This document shows positions 34,230 through 56,501 of a stretch of 64,000 nt of DNA, in pieces. Each line of letters starts with the position of its first letter. Within the stretch, counting starts at the first letter, position 1. The stretch is from Allopusillimonas soli (lineage in GTDB: Bacteria; Pseudomonadota; Gammaproteobacteria; Burkholderiales; Burkholderiaceae_B), in the NCBI RefSeq assembly GCF_004153445.1, contig NZ_SDQC01000002.1:496001-560000 (forward strand), written 5' to 3'. A program made the position numbers and the translations under genes. Under the pieces are notes generated by a model that was not told the origin of the DNA, searched no databases, and saw only the letters and a list, made by a program, of their open reading frames with translations.

Positions 34230-36638
34230 TCATGCACGCAGGCGTACGCCATGGGCGGACACCAGTGCCTCCAACAGACTGGCCATGCAATGCTCGACCG
34301 TTGCATCATCGAGCGTTGCATCCCGCCCTTGCAGGCGGAAACGGAAAGCCATGCTTTTTTCGTTTGTCTGCGCGGTCTTGTCGCGCCATACATCGAATAG
34401 TTTAATGTCTTTGACGACCCCAAGGGTATCATCAGATTGTATGCTTTGCGTAACTGTATCCAACAAATCACGATAGCTTACTTCTGGCTTGACCCAAATG
34501 GCCAGATCGCGCAGCACCACAGGCTGACGCGACAACTCGCCCGGAGCGGGAAGCGCGCTTTCGGAGATGGCTTGCATATCCACCTCAAAAACCACCGGTG
34601 CGTGTGCCAGATCGCACAACTGCGCCCATTTCGGATGCACCTCTCCGATGCAGCCTATGGTGCGCCCATGCAACTCCAGCCGCGCGCTGCGCCCTGGATG
34701 CAAGGCGGGATGAGGCGCGGGAATGCATGTCAATGCTTCGGCGTTCTTGCCCAGCAGGCTTTCCAGATCTTTCTTGACGTCGTAAAAGTCCACCAGGCGA
34801 GCCGGCTCGGCCCACTGCTCTTCAAGTGCGGGGCCCCATGCCGCGCCTGCGAGGCGCACAGGCTGGCTTACCCCGGCCACGTTCAGCTCGCCATCGTCTA
34901 CCGCTGAATCGCGCAGAAAGACCCGGCCCAGCTCGAACACTCGCACTCTGCTCTGCTTGCGATTGGCATTGTGCACGATATTGGCAAGCAAGCCGCCGAT
35001 AAGGCTGGAGCGCATGACCGCCAACTGGCTGGCTATCGGGTTCAGCAGGCGGATAGGCTCGTCGTTGCCTGCGTAATGGCGTTCCCAGTCCTCCTCCACA
35101 AAAGCGAAGTTGATGACCTCTTGGTAGTCCAGCGCCGCCATCCGGGCCCGCAGCGCATGCGGCCCGACCTTGCTTTCCGTCTCAATCAGCATATTGGCTG
35201 GTGCCACCGGTGCAATATCGGGAATCCGCTCGAAGCCATGAATGCGCGCCACCTCTTCGATGAGATCCTCTTCGATGAAAAGATCAAACCGGTACGATGG
35301 AGGCGTCACGACAAATGTGTCGCCGTCCAGCTCGAAAGGCAGGCCCAACCGGCCAAAGACGTTCGCAACCTCATCGTGCGATAGATCGATGCCCAACACC
35401 TTGCGGCAGCGTGCCAGCCGCATGCGCACGGGCTTGCGGTCTGGCACGCCGATAACCTGGTCATCCACGGGTCCCGCCTGGCCACCGCAGATGTCGAGCA
35501 GCAGCCGGGTCATGTACTCGAGATGTTCAGGAATGGAGGAAAAGTCGACGCCGCGCTCGAATCGATGACTCGCTTCAGAACTAAACTTATAACGCCGCGC
35601 GCGGCCCATGATAGCCTCGGGAAACCAGAACGCGGCTTCCACGTAGATATCGGTGGTGCCCAGTGTGACCGCGCTGGCATCCCCCCCCATGATGCCAGCC
35701 ATGCTTTCGATCTGCCCGCCAGCGGTGATGATCCCCACGTCGGGTTCGAGCGTTACTGTCTGGCCATTCAACAAGGCCAGCTGCTCGCCCTGCCGCGCCC
35801 AACGAACCGTCAGGCCATCGGCAATGCGATTCAGATCAAACACATGCGTGGGGCGTCCCAGTTCGAGCATCACGTAGTTGGAGATATCGACCAATGCGGA
35901 AATGGATCGCTGGCCCGCGCGCTCCAGCCGCGATTTCATCCAGGCCGGCGTTGCCGCCCTGGCATTGACGCCGCGTACGATGCGGCCCGCAAATCGGCCG
36001 CATAGATCAGGGGCTTGCACCTGCACCGACAGACAATCATCCAGCGTAACAGGCACCGGGTCGAAAGACGGCTTTGCAAGCGGTGCGCCCGTCAGAGCGC
36101 TGACCTCGCGAGCCACCCCCAGGATGGATAGGCAATCAGCACGGTTGGGCGTCAGTTTGAGCGTAAACAGTGTGTCGTCCAGATCGAGCGCCTCGCGCAG
36201 ATTCTGGCCAACCACAGCGTCGTCATCCAGCACGAGCAATCCGGCGTGATCCTGCGACAAGCCAAGCTCCCGTGCCGAACACAGCATGCCGTACGACGCC
36301 TCGCCACGCATTTTTGCCTTGCCTATAGTCATGCCACCGGGCAGCTGTGCGCCTACGCGTGCCAGCGGCACCTTGATACCCTCTGCCGCGTTGGGCGCGC
36401 CGCACACAATCTGCAAAGGCTCGCCTGAACCGTCATCCACCCGGCATATGCGAAGCTTGTCTGCATTCGGATGCGGAGCGATGGCCAGAATCCGCGCTAT
36501 CACCACACCGGAAAACGGTGGCGCAGCCGGCTGGGTCTCCTCGACTTCCAGGCCCGCCATGGTAAGGCGGTGCGACAGACTCTGAGTATCGATATCTGGA
36601 TTGGCGTAGGCGCGTAGCCAGGACTCTGGGAATTGCAT
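34230..36638 (-). CDS. pheT: phenylalanyl-tRNA synthetase beta subunit
   Basis: The 802-residue protein has the full domain set: MQFPESWLRAYANPDIDTQ, a tRNA-binding (EMAP/OB) domain at about 40-150 with NADKLRICRVDDG, the B3/B4 editing domain (about 200-400, with ISNYVMLELGRPTHVFDLNR), B5, and a C-terminal anticodon-binding domain (about 710-800). It charges tRNA-Phe together with PheS, whose stop is 33 bp upstream. Confidence 0.96.
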   Translation of the reverse strand: MQFPESWLRAYANPDIDTQSLSHRLTMAGLEVEETQPAAPPFSGVVIARILAIAPHPNADKLRICRVDDGSGEPLQIVCGAPNAAEGIKVPLARVGAQLPGGMTIGKAKMRGEASYGMLCSARELGLSQDHAGLLVLDDDAVVGQNLREALDLDDTLFTLKLTPNRADCLSILGVAREVSALTGAPLAKPSFDPVPVTLDDCLSVQVQAPDLCGRFAGRIVRGVNARAATPAWMKSRLERAGQRSISALVDISNYVMLELGRPTHVFDLNRIADGLTVRWARQGEQLALLNGQTVTLEPDVGIITAGGQIESMAGIMGGDASAVTLGTTDIYVEAAFWFPEAIMGRARRYKFSSEASHRFERGVDFSSIPEHLEYMTRLLLDICGGQAGPVDDQVIGVPDRKPVRMRLARCRKVLGIDLSHDEVANVFGRLGLPFELDGDTFVVTPPSYRFDLFIEEDLIEEVARIHGFERIPDIAPVAPANMLIETESKVGPHALRARMAALDYQEVINFAFVEEDWERHYAGNDEPIRLLNPIASQLAVMRSSLIGGLLANIVHNANRKQSRVRVFELGRVFLRDSAVDDGELNVAGVSQPVRLAGAAWGPALEEQWAEPARLVDFYDVKKDLESLLGKNAEALTCIPAPHPALHPGRSARLELHGRTIGCIGEVHPKWAQLCDLAHAPVVFEVDMQAISESALPAPGELSRQPVVLRDLAIWVKPEVSYRDLLDTVTQSIQSDDTLGVVKDIKLFDVWRDKTAQTNEKSMAFRFRLQGRDATLDDATVEHCMASLLEALVSAHGVRLRA

Positions 36639-36671
36639 GATCCGCTCGTGATAATTGTGGGAGGGAGGCGT

Positions 36672-37694
36672 TCAGCGATTGAACTGGCGCAGAAAGCGCA
36701 GATCGCCTTCGAAAAACTGGCGCAGATCGTTGACGCCGTAACGCAGCATGGTCAACCGCTCGAGCCCAGACCCAAAAGCAAAGCCAATATAGCGTTCGGG
36801 ATCCAATCCGAAATTGCGCACGACTTCCGGGTGCACTTGGCCCGAGCCGGATATTTCCAGCCAACGTCCCTGGTTGGGCCCGCGCGTGAACATCATGTCG
36901 ATCTCGGCGGAAGGCTCTGTGAACGGAAAAAATGAAGGACGAAATCTGACGGAGAGCGCATCGGTTTCAAAGAAAGCGCGCAGAAAGGCGGTATAGACGC
37001 CCTTGAGATCCGCAAAGGAGATGTCTTCGGCGATCCACAACCCCTCCACCTGATGGAACATGGGCGAATGCGTGGCATCGCTGTCAACCCGGTAGGTGCG
37101 CCCGGGCGCAATGACTTTGATGGGCGGCGTGTGCATCCGGGCATAGCGCACCTGCATGGGGCTGGTGTGCGTGCGCAGCAGCAGGGGAAGGCCCTGCGCA
37201 TCCTGCATGTCGACGTAGAAAGTGTCCTGCATCGACCGCGCGGGATGGTTCTCGGGGTTGTTCAGTGCCGTGAAATTCGTCCAGTCGTTTTCGATTTCGG
37301 GGCCGTCTGCGACATCAAACCCGATGGAGCGGAAAATTGCTTCGACGCGCTGCCAGGTCTGAATGACCGGATGGATGCCGCCAAATCCCCTGCCGCGCCC
37401 AGGCAGCGTGACATCAATGGTTTCCTGCGCCAACCTTCTGTCGAGCTCGGCCTGAGCCAGCGCCGCGCGGCGCTCGTTCAGCAATACCTCGATATCGCGC
37501 TTGATCTGGTTGATGCGCGCGCCCTCTTCTTTTTTCCGGGCGGGATCGAGCTGGGCAAGGCCCTTGAGCAGCGTCGTCAGCGCGCCCTGTTTGCCTAGAA
37601 ATCGGGCCTTGGCGTTTTCAAGTGCGGCGGCATCGCCTGCCTGTGCAAAGAGTTCCCTGGCCTGGACAATCAGGTCATCAGCCGAATCAGTCAT
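36672..37694 (-). CDS. pheS: phenylalanyl-tRNA synthetase alpha subunit
   Basis: The 340-residue catalytic subunit has an N-terminal coiled coil (residues 1-85), then [20 protein letters not shown], the class II motif 2 region [56 protein letters not shown] and the motif 3 end [20 protein letters not shown]. The start at 37694 gives the family N-terminus; the upstream frame is open but meaningless. It lies 76 bp after rplT with a hairpin between. Confidence 0.96.
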
Positions 37695-37705
37695 TGTGTC
37701 GAAAG

Positions 37706-37740
37706 TCCAAAAGCAAACGGAGCCCGACAAAGGCCCCGTT
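37706..37740 (-). terminator. terminator-like hairpin between rplT and pheS
   Basis: On the minus strand AACGGGGCC (37740-37732) pairs with GGCTCCGTT (37724-37716) around a 7-nt loop, with one G-T pair, followed by TGCTTTT. It may reduce read-through into pheS. No phenylalanine-rich leader peptide was found in front of it. Confidence 0.5.
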
Positions 37741-37770
37741 CGCATGTAACAACAGAAGATGCCGGCCGAA

Positions 37771-38130
37771 TTACGAAGCCAGTGCGTTCCGGGCCTGTGC
37801 CACGACCGCGGCAAAGCCGGCCTTGTCGTTGACGGCCATGTCGGCCAGAACCTTGCGGTCCAGCTCGATGGCGGCCTTCTTGGTGCCGGCAATGAACTGG
37901 CTGTAGGTCATGCCGAGCTCACGGCAACCCGCGTTGATACGGGTTATCCACAAAGCGCGGAAAGTGCGCTTCTTGTTGCGGCGATCGCGGTAGGCGTATT
38001 GCCCGGCGCGCATGACGGCTTGTTTGGCAATGCGAAAGACGTTACCGCGACGACCGCGGTAGCCTTTGGCTGCATTGATGACTTTCTTGTGACGGGCGCG
38101 GGCGGTAACACCGCGTTTTACGCGTGGCAT
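37771..38130 (-). CDS. rplT: 50S ribosomal protein L20
   Basis: The 119-residue protein has [40 protein letters not shown] and the compact C-terminal domain with [21 protein letters not shown]20 binds 23S rRNA and in other bacteria represses its own operon through an mRNA mimic. It lies 19 bp after rpmI. Confidence 0.97.
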
Positions 38131-51646: not shown

Positions 51647-52195
51647 TCAGGATGCCGGTTCGCCCTTGCCCGCGGGTGCCTTTTTGCGGGGCGCCAGGAC
51701 CATCACCATCTGGCGGCCTTCGAGCTTGGGCATGGCTTCCACCTGCACGAGTTCGTTCAGGTCGTCCCGCACGCGCTCAAGTACACGCATGCCCAACTCC
51801 TGATGGGCCATTTCACGGCCACGAAACCGCAAAGTAACCTTGGCCTTGTCGCCTTCTTCGATGAAGCGACGCAGATTGCGCAGCTTGACCTGGTAATCGC
51901 CTTCATCAGTACCCGGACGGAACTTCACTTCCTTGACCTGGATGACTTTCTGCTTGGCGCGCGCTTCCTGCTGGCGCTTCTGCTCCTGATACTTGAACTT
52001 GCCGTAATCCATCATGCGGCAGACCGGCGGGGATGCGTTGGGCGCGATCTCGACCAGATCCACGTCATTTTGCTCGGCCAGGTGCAAAGCCTCGGGCGTT
52101 TTGTATACCCCGAGCTGCTCGCCCTCCGTGCCTATGAGGCGAACCTCGGGTACACGGATTTCACCATTGATGCGATGTGACTTTTCGGTTGCGAT
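51647..52195 (-). CDS. infC: translation initiation factor IF-3 (ATC start)
   Basis: With the non-standard ATC at 52195 the protein has 182 residues and begins with the family sequence [25 protein letters not shown] lies 8 bp upstream and no ATG or GTG suits this N-terminus. Later come [31 protein letters not shown] and [17 protein letters not shown] rare start codon allows IF-3 to repress its own synthesis, as in E. coli (ATT). It follows thrS by 26 bp, but rpmI does not follow it here. Confidence 0.93.
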
Positions 52196-52221
52196 GTCTA
52201 AGACTCCTATTGATGATTTAG

Positions 52222-54168
52222 TCAGGCCTGACCAGCTTTTCCGCTGTCTTGCCGCGTTTCGATTTCATGCCGCAAGCGTGCCGAGAACTGTTCCAGCGTC
52301 ATGACGCCCAGATCCAGGCCCCCGCGGCCACGCACTGCCACCGTGCCGGCTTCCCGCTCTTTTTCGCCCACAACCAGTATGTAAGGCAGTTTCTGCATGC
52401 TGTGTTCACGAATTTTACGGGTGATTTTTTCGCCACGCAAATCGGATTCCACTCTAAACCCTTGTTTTTTCAGGCTTCCAGCGAGCTGATCGGCATATTG
52501 ACCCGATGATTCGGATATGCAGCACACCACCGCATGAACCGGTGCGAGCCATGCCGGCATGGCGCCGGCATGATTTTCTATGAGCATGCCGATAAAACGC
52601 TCCAGCGAACCGAGAATGGCCCGATGCAGCATGACGGGCGTCCGGCGCTGATCGGACGCATCGACATACTCTGCGCCAAGACGCTGCGGCATGGAAAAAT
52701 CAACCTGTATCGTGCCGCATTGCCAATGGCGCCCGATGGCATCCTTCAGCGTATATTCGATCTTGGGGCCGTAGAAGGCGCCTTCGCCGGGGGATATTTC
52801 GTATATGCAGCCGGTGTGATCCAGGCTCTCCATGAGCGCCTGCTCTGCCTTATCCCACACCTCGTCCGACCCGATGCGCTTTTCAGGTCGCGTTGCCACC
52901 TTGTAGAGGATTTCCGTGAAGCCAAAATCGGCGTAGACCTTCTGGAGCAAGGCCGTGAAGGCGGCGCACTCGTCCTGCAACTGGTCTTCGGTACAGAAAA
53001 TATGCCCGTCGTCCTGAGTGAAGCCTCGCACCCGCATCATGCCATGCAGCGAACCAGACGGCTCATTGCGGTGGCATTGGCCAAACTCGCCATACCGCAC
53101 CGGCAGTTCGCGATACGAATGCAGATTGCTGTTGAAAATCTGCACGTGGCCGGGACAATTCATGGGCTTGAGTCCATAGACACGGTTTTCGGACTCGGTC
53201 GTGAACATGTTTTCGGCGTAGTTGTCCCAGTGCCCGGTTTTTTTCCATAACGACAGATCGAGGATCTGGGGCGCCTTGACTTCCTGGTAGCCATTGTCCT
53301 GATAGACCCGGCGCATGTATTGCTCGACCTGCTGCCACAAAGTCCAGCCCTTGGGATGCCAGAAAATCAGCCCCGGCGCCTCGTCCTGGAAATGAAAGAG
53401 ATCAAGCTCGCGTCCAAGCTTGCGATGGTCGCGCTTTTCCGCCTCTTCGAGCATATGCAGATAGGCCGCCTGCTCTTCCTTGGTAGCCCAGGCCGTGCCA
53501 TAAATGCGCTGCAGCATCTCATTGTTGCTGTCCCCACGCCAGTAGGCGCCAGCCACCTTCATCAATTTGAAGACTTTGAGCTTGCCGGTCGACGGGACGT
53601 GAGGGCCTCGGCATAGGTCGATGAAGTCGCCTTCGCGATACAAACTGATGGTTTCGTTGGAAGGGATGGACGCAATGATTTCGGCCTTGTAGTCCTCCCC
53701 TATGCTCTTGAAGAAGGCGACGGCATCGTCGCGCAGCCATTCCTCGCGCACCACGGTTTCATCTTTCTTTGCAAGCTCAGCCATTTTTTTCTCGATGGCC
53801 TCGAGATCCTCAGGCGTGAAAGGACGCTTGTAGGAAAAATCGTAGTAAAAACCGTTGTCGATGACCGGCCCGATGGTGACCTGAGCATCTGGAAACAGCG
53901 ATTTGACCGCGTAAGCCAACAAATGTGCCGTGGAGTGGCGGATGAGATCCAGGCCATCGGCATCCTTGGCTGTCACAATGGCCAGCTTGGCATCGCGATC
54001 TATGATATGACTGGTATCTACCAGCCGAGGCTCGGCGCCATCCACGGTAACCCGGCCAGCCAGTGCTGCGCGTCCAAGGCCTGTGCCTATGGAGTGCGCC
54101 ACGTCACTGACCGAAACGGGACCGGGATACTCGCGCTGTGAGCCGTCGGGCAAGGTAATTTGAACCAT
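52222..54168 (-). CDS. thrS: threonyl-tRNA synthetase
   Basis: The 648-residue class II synthetase has the TGS domain (residues 1-62), the editing domain with the HxxxH motif ([13 protein letters not shown]) and [10 protein letters not shown] (about 65-225), the catalytic core ([20 protein letters not shown] before it, then [49 protein letters not shown]) and the anticodon-binding domain (about 545-640). AGGA lies 7 bp before the ATG. A threonine-rich leader peptide and a terminator precede the gene, indicating attenuation control. Confidence 0.97.
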
Positions 54169-54180
54169 CTAAAAGTCCTG

Positions 54181-54209
54181 AAAAAGCAAAAACGCGGCCT
54201 TGGCCGCGT
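54181..54209 (-). terminator. attenuator terminator in the thrS leader
   Basis: On the minus strand ACGCGGCC (54209-54202) pairs with GGCCGCGT (54199-54192), followed by TTTTTGCTTTTT (54192-54181), ending 12 bp before thrS. Its 5' arm is also complementary to GCCGCGT at 54255-54249, an alternative antiterminator pairing. Strand 1 (TACGCG, 54291-54286, inside the leader ORF) can in turn pair with CGCGTA at 54253-54248. Confidence 0.85.
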
Positions 54210-54260
54210 CATCGGTGTATTGGTTTGCAGAATGCATGACAAAACAGTACGCGGCGGCAA

Positions 54261-54305
54261 TCATGTATGCCGGGTCGTAGTAGTTCGCGTAGTGTTTGTG
54301 TTCAT
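54261..54305 (-). CDS. threonine-rich leader peptide of thrS
   Basis: ATG 54305 opens a 14-codon ORF, MNTNTTRTTTTRHT, ending TGA 54263-54261. Eight of its 14 residues are threonine, including four in a row, using ACA, ACT, ACG and ACC. It lies 93 bp before thrS, followed by segments that can form mutually exclusive hairpins. In ribosome-mediated attenuation, shortage of Thr-tRNA would stall the ribosome here, free segment 2 to pair with the 5' arm of the terminator, and let polymerase continue into thrS. The ribosome-binding site is weak or absent, which is the main doubt. Confidence 0.8.
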   Translation of the reverse strand: MNTNTTRTTTTRHT

Positions 54306-54429
54306 GTATCAAAAAGCAAGGTTTTTTCTATCAGTAGTGTAACATCCGCGCACGCGCTGCGCCCTCATAATCGTGCGGACGCAGCACTGAGTGCGGCAGG
54401 ATGTTGCAAAAATGCCAGCGAGCGGCGCA

Positions 54430-56424: not shown

Positions 56425-56501
56425 AGGCGGTTAGCTCAGTTGGTTAGAGCGCTACGTTGACATCGTAGAGGTCGCTGGTTCGAATCCAGTACTGCCTACC
56501 A
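56425..56501 (+). tRNA. tRNA-Val(GAC)
   Basis: This is a 77-nt tRNA with encoded CCA. The acceptor arms AGGCGGT (56425-56431) and ACTGCCT (56491-56497) pair with one wobble. The anticodon stem CTACG/CGTAG holds the loop TTGACAT, anticodon GAC (reads GTC). The T-loop is GTTCGAATC. Confidence 0.96.

Follow-up and report, generated by a model that had tools for sequence, protein, structure and literature searches.

What controls the threonyl-tRNA synthetase gene at this locus? The gene, which we take from its sequence to be thrS, is an ORF of 648 aa at 52222..54168 on the minus strand of the window (the whole 64,000-nt stretch of DNA analysed here), and it has relatives in the family genomes. 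thrS is a textbook case of synthetase autoregulation: E. coli ThrRS binds a tRNA-like mRNA and blocks initiation, a translational control. Firmicutes have a T-box before thrS, which works by antitermination and binds uncharged tRNA directly, without a leader peptide. The earlier note proposed a ribosome-stalling attenuator, unlike either of these. Anatomy, conservation, geometry and computed alternative folds support that proposal. We read the region as a classical ribosome-mediated transcription attenuator by which thrS, and probably infC, would respond to the charging of Thr-tRNA, and give this reading a probability of roughly 0.87.

The 14-codon, eight-threonine ORF claimed upstream of thrS was borne out to the base on direct reading. 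This thrL-like leader peptide ORF, MNTNTTRTTTTRHT, lies at 54261..54305 on the minus strand (ATG 54305-54303, TGA 54263-54261), has 8 Thr in 14 codons, and was recognised by its translation, its Thr density and its counterparts in relatives. Short ORF readings were compared over the whole window (8–40 aa, any ATG, GTG or TTG, both strands, nested readings counted separately). Among 2,600 of them the leader came top, with 7 Thr within 10 consecutive residues; the next-best reading frame in the window had 6. The Thr-rich leader ORF is not due to chance.

The other parts of the putative switch follow on the same (minus) strand. Segment 1 (TACGCG, 54286..54291) lies within the leader; the complementarity of these letters to CGCGTA at 54253-54248, as the note had it, is right in position and in pairing. 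Segment 2, the antiterminator strand (GCCGCGTA, 54248..54255), begins 5 nt past the leader stop codon, and its GCCGCGT (54255-54249) is correctly placed and able to pair with the 5′ arm of the terminator. That arm is segment 3 (ACGCGGC, 54203..54209), the alternative partner of segment 2. The 2:3 duplex has a computed energy of −14.7 kcal/mol, and its pairing was matched or exceeded in 3 of 100 spacer shuffles. The GC-rich terminator and T run expected ahead of thrS were found as well: 37 nt separate segment 2 from a predicted intrinsic terminator stem-loop (3:4; GACGCGGCCAAGGCCGCGTT, 54191..54210; 8 pairs, loop of 4 nt, −14.6 kcal/mol), behind which stands the U-tract TTTGCTTTTT (54181..54190), read with a GC interruption and matched by a T-run in relatives. 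From the stem to the thrS ATG (54168) is 22 nt. The RNA from 54305 to 54181 folds at −38.3 kcal/mol (z −4.5 against dinucleotide shuffles). Taken alone, the terminator is not above regional chance (1 found, 0.7 expected in shuffles); it becomes significant because it is found repeatedly before thrS in relatives.

We found thrS in 194 of 200 family genomes and 196 of 200 order genomes, and 80 named relatives were also taken. Upstream regions of 216 Burkholderiales thrS genes were examined, identical or near-identical rows included; rows that were not thrS (L006-L010) or that repeated a genome (L156-L158) were left out. An automated rule called a leader plus terminator at 135 of the 216 loci, eight of which were judged spurious by eye (L019, L068, L079, L081, L099, L123, L212 and L154, the last a repeat of L019). 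This left 127 leaders, 123 of them distinct. Because the 216 hold repeated genomes, the 78 non-redundant leaders (<80% similar) are the safer number. By the automated rule, leader and terminator occur in 18 of the 42 families of the order sample, or in 19 families with the window's own, which was first counted as lacking a leader because the leader-bearing L156-L158 had been dropped as repeats. The rule called no leader in 23 of the 42 families, most of them represented by one genome, and the leader is also missing in some close relatives. Alignments and individual loci show a Thr-rich ORF with a terminator before thrS in relatives across the order, contrary to the lack of conservation that the note named as a refutation.

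Threonine density was compared with that of reverse complements. Leaders that pack 4 Thr or more into 6 residues were present at 70 of the 216 Burkholderiales loci and in 1 of 216 reverse complements; there were none among 40 other Gammaproteobacteria (hand-chosen from 182 genomes with a match) or among 20 genomes outside the class (hand-chosen from 88 matching genomes in the phylum search). With at least 3 Thr in 6, the counts were 122 of 216 forward and 48 of 216 in reverse complement, and among the 40 other Gammaproteobacteria 2 forward against 9 reverse. The looser rule admits too much, so we relied on the stricter one together with co-variation. Just one or two Thr are present in 16 of the 127 leaders.

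Leaders in the window's genus read M.TNTTRTTTRH. or M.WLTNIIRTTTRHP, those in the family's other genera carry TTRTTT or ARTTT variants, and those in the rest of the order often read MTPRTTT... or M.FRT(C/R)T.... A nucleotide core, C[GTC][AG]ACT, is present in 67 of the 78 non-redundant leaders, a frequency biased because the core was one of two routes into the leader set. The codon after the core specifies Thr in 44 of the 67 (ACG 23, ACC 10, ACT 6, ACA 5), and the second codon after it does so in 38. Threonine is retained although the codon for it varies, which argues for selection on the residue itself, and this synonymous variation suggests that the leader is translated. In 66 leaders, the best duplex between leader and segment 2 pairs core letter 1 in 88% of cases and core letter 2 in 85%; to judge from this pairing, core letters seem to double as part of segment 1.

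Pairing among the segments was monitored at two depths. Across 27 aligned close relatives, standard pairs filled 97.9% of the 2:3 cells, 88.3% of the 1:2 cells and 100% of the 3:4 cells; the terminator stem was paired in all 27, and the T-run behind it was conserved too. No covariation was seen in 2:3 within this alignment, and in 1:2 and 3:4 together only one pair was altered on both sides. Close alignment by itself gives little covariation because the pairs hardly vary. The 78 non-redundant leaders were compared with segments exchanged between species (own against swapped, double-centred, 10,000 permutations). In this swap test, which removes species relatedness only partly, the own pairing was reached in 0 of 10,000 permutations for both 2:3 and 1:2, and in 923 of 10,000 for the 1:3 control. 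For the 23 most divergent leaders (<62% similar), 2:3 gave 40 of 10,000, and 1:2 was not significant (2,560 of 10,000). With L154 included the result agrees: 2:3 and 1:2 stayed at 0 and 1:3 stood at 984 per 10,000, and the divergent set, then 24, gave 77 for 2:3, 1,961 for 1:2 and 4,822 for 1:3. A set of 85 leaders with the spurious ones gave 0, 0 and 442 in 10,000 permutations. An initial pairing test on 95 loci, in which the search for segment 2 began only at the leader's final 6 nt, placed 2:3 within the top 5 ranks at 41 loci (median rank 8 of 100) and 1:2 at 15 (median 27). The wider segment 2 was adopted because that test missed overlap with the last leader codons in Achromobacter and Bordetella. 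The pairing segments thus co-vary in the own-versus-swapped comparison, with the exception of 1:2 in the 23 most divergent leaders.

Could the stem-loop simply end transcription of the upstream gene constitutively, or mark a processing site, with the Thr-rich ORF an accident? A hairpin does stand before thrS without a leader in L011, L018, L019 and L138-L141, and a tRNA-Val gene lies just upstream in many relatives. But Thr density and conservation are far over the controls, the segments co-vary, and the upstream gene is not conserved, so that this explanation is quite improbable. Ownership of the terminator by the upstream gene was rejected on the last ground: that gene of the window was found before thrS at its own locus only, plus a weak partial match in L022, among 139 loci longer than 3.5 kb (with upstream flanks mostly of 1.5–2 kb, some shortened by contig ends). 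In many relatives (L159-L224, L225-L264) the tRNA-Val gene (GAC, by its letters) immediately precedes thrS or its leader; the window's own tRNA-Val (gac) reads from the opposite strand, at 56425-56501.

An extended −10 promoter-like element, TGTTACACT, lies at 54336..54344 (minus strand) and was noticed through recurrence of TGTTAMACT in family loci, where this pattern occurs in 31 of 82 against 0.35 expected from mononucleotide shuffles. Of 25 loci with both this pattern and a leader, 24 have it 29–45 nt ahead of the leader's start codon; the remaining locus has a spurious leader. A consensus scan of the thrS strand found no sigma-70-like site. We predict that thrS transcription starts about 7 nt past the extended −10, near 54328, ahead of the leader ORF rather than downstream of 54305, where the note placed its second refutation. 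Hairpins near the thrS start were also seen at loci with no recognised leader (L011, L018, L019, L106, L108, L138-L141). They are imperfect in L106 and L108, and at most leaderless loci come soon after a promoter-like element.

The window's leader ATG has no Shine-Dalgarno sequence before it (duplex energy +0.6, compared with −4.0 for thrS). Nor was there clear enrichment in the leaders of relatives: the family median was −2.2 against −1.4 in shuffled sequence, and other Burkholderiales leaders had a median of −4.0 against −5.6, medians that still take in the spurious leader L154. The absent Shine-Dalgarno at the leader is the main weakness of the attenuator reading.

Folds were computed with a ribosome footprint whose edge was assumed to lie 12 nt past the first base of the A-site codon. 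With codons 3–14 in the A site, 2:3 formed once segment 3 had been transcribed. A ribosome at the stop codon left segment 3 open, without 2:3; given the assumed edge, the position of the stop codon suits coverage of segment 2 by a terminating ribosome. Without a ribosome 1:2 formed and 2:3 was excluded. At equilibrium 3:4 was favoured at all ribosome positions tested, so the switch needs a kinetic argument and would have to act during transcription.

From the sequence we infer leader translation, stalling, termination and a starvation response, in the following order. RNA polymerase would start near 54328 and transcribe the leader ORF. When Thr-tRNA is scarce, a ribosome translating the eight Thr codons would stall at one of them and cover segment 1, leaving segment 2 (54255-54248) free to pair with segment 3 (54209-54203) as it emerges; the 2:3 duplex would block the terminator 3:4, and thrS would be transcribed. 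When Thr-tRNA is plentiful, the ribosome would run on to the TGA at 54263-54261 and its footprint would then lie over segment 2; segment 3 would be free, and 3:4 would presumably end transcription before thrS. If no ribosome were present, 1:2 should form and prevent 2:3, again giving termination.

The same leader ORF and hairpin might act on thrS translation, or on access of Rho, with stalling refolding the RNA near the ribosome binding site. The window gives this some footing, in that the hairpin ends 22 nt from the thrS start and its U-tract is broken by GC, and E. coli thrS is under translational control. Yet the CAGGAC site before thrS is outside the hairpin, and the 27 aligned relatives keep a T-run behind the stem. 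Over the 127 leaders (found by a search rule that includes a T-rich tail), the gap from hairpin to thrS has a median of 25 nt and reaches 195 nt, and at some loci the distance from hairpin to thrS is too great for direct occlusion. We consider control of translation or Rho access improbable relative to the transcription attenuator.

A covariance model of the element, searched against its own genome, matched best at thrS (8.3e-21), with no other match under E=0.3. The next, at E 0.38, was the same hairpin on the other strand, and no convincing further copies were seen in that genome. Among 101 family genomes, 59 had a match at E<=0.01; in at least two of them (G055, G062) the sole match was away from thrS. 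One extra match in relatives (L302) is another thrS leader, another (L300) lies behind a different gene, and four (L297, L298, L299, L301) consist chiefly of the hairpin in the model alignment. Rfam searches of the window at the gathering score gave two tRNAs only, with neither T-box nor Thr_leader, the Rfam family of the thrABC type; neither was among the matches at E<=10 either. Near the leader there were two weak matches (E 4 and 7.3), and 20 of the loci compared yielded 15 tRNAs and one borderline antisense family.

The E. coli type of control was sought in the same upstream regions. An anticodon-like stem-loop just ahead of thrS, no more than about 110 nt from its start and with CGT or GGT in the loop, was found in 21 of the 40 other Gammaproteobacteria (L225-L264), a count that is descriptive only because the pattern was drawn from the same 40 sequences. 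The pattern is of the GGCC-YYTCGTA..GGTC type; its loop letters correspond to a Thr anticodon, CGU or GGU, and we take it to resemble the E. coli thrS operator. Scanning 13 of the 21 motif loci with cmscan returned tRNAs only, plus a borderline HPnc0260 antisense to thrS in L241. In the 216 Burkholderiales thrS upstream regions the motif was found 0 times, so that the note's separation of this control from that of E. coli thrS holds in sequence. These counts also bear on autogenous control in which ThrRS binds the leader RNA and the hairpin mimics tRNA. Binding of this kind is known for E. coli thrS, and the motif in the other Gammaproteobacteria sampled would fit it, but none of the 216 Burkholderiales regions has the motif and the window's hairpin loop, CAAG, lacks a Thr anticodon. 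ThrRS binding is highly improbable here.

The distribution allows a tentative evolutionary account. In the Burkholderiales the anticodon-mimicking translational operator of other Gammaproteobacteria may have given way, probably a single time, to an attenuator whose leader carries Thr codons and whose core, CGA-ACT, hardly varies. This core could both make the ribosome pause (CGA, a slow codon, stands beside Thr) and contribute to segment 1; several lineages would later have dropped the leader and kept the hairpin. We place this at slightly less than even odds. If true, stalled ribosomes took over this control from free enzyme and tRNA, and thrS is a case in nature of an essential gene exchanging its regulator. 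The leader attenuator, spread through much of a large order, and the operator-like motif on thrS would be two solutions to one regulatory problem, and the change from RNA-binding autorepression to ribosome-sensed attenuation becomes testable. It is further predicted that many sequenced genomes have a small ORF ahead of thrS and make a short, terminated RNA there.

The gene after thrS is presumably infC (IF3; 51647..52195, minus strand, sequence evidence), and its co-regulation with thrS is expected. By inspection its apparent start codon is AUC (window 52193-52195, minus). Rare start codons such as AUC are linked to IF3 self-regulation in E. coli. The usual cluster order is thrS-infC-rpmI-rplT-pheS-pheT. 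This cluster is split in the window, with parts at 34230-38130 and 51647-54168; some 13.5 kb separate infC from rplT and the genes resembling pheS and pheT. After infC come genes that we take from their translations to be gshB-like, PTS-like, ammonium transporter-like, comM-like and TRAP-like.

Among known systems, the E. coli thr operon attenuator (thrL-thrABC) has a Thr-rich leader and a terminator/antiterminator switch and senses the charging of Thr-tRNA. The window shares the Thr-rich leader peptide and the putative switch; the E. coli attenuator controls biosynthesis and also senses Ile, whereas the window's precedes a synthetase gene. The E. coli thrS translational operator is likewise a feedback on the same gene, but its anticodon-like motif is absent from the window. 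Like the Firmicutes T-box, the element would sense Thr-tRNA by transcription antitermination, but through a leader peptide and with no T-box match. A survey of proteobacterial attenuators was reportedly made by Vitreschak et al. in 2004. We found no description of a leader attenuator before a proteobacterial thrS in a search of mostly open literature, where an earlier prediction is possible.

Further parallels occur on other synthetase genes. Classical attenuators are described on pheST in gamma-proteobacteria and on trpS and leuS in Streptomyces (PMC1262725); the kind of control is the same, and amino acid, gene and clade differ. The uORFC-8-2 motif before cysS in Rhodobacterales, a short ORF with tandem cognate codons and proposed ribosome-mediated attenuation (PMC8632094), likewise puts a short ORF before a synthetase gene, there for Cys and cysS in alpha-proteobacteria. 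PMC2965389 treats a hisS leader peptide in bacilli and mentions E. coli ThrRS, and thrS does not occur in the accessible parts of PMC4833913 and PMC4176332. For Streptomyces lividans TK24, a threonine leader peptide, thrL, has been proposed before thrS; it has two Thr in 18 residues, is leaderless and has no clear terminator according to its authors (PMC8079986). Both are proposed Thr leaders before thrS, and the window's has 8 Thr in 14 codons and a predicted terminator. Attenuation by this mechanism is already known; new, as far as we searched, are the gene and clade concerned and the apparent replacement of the thrS operator.
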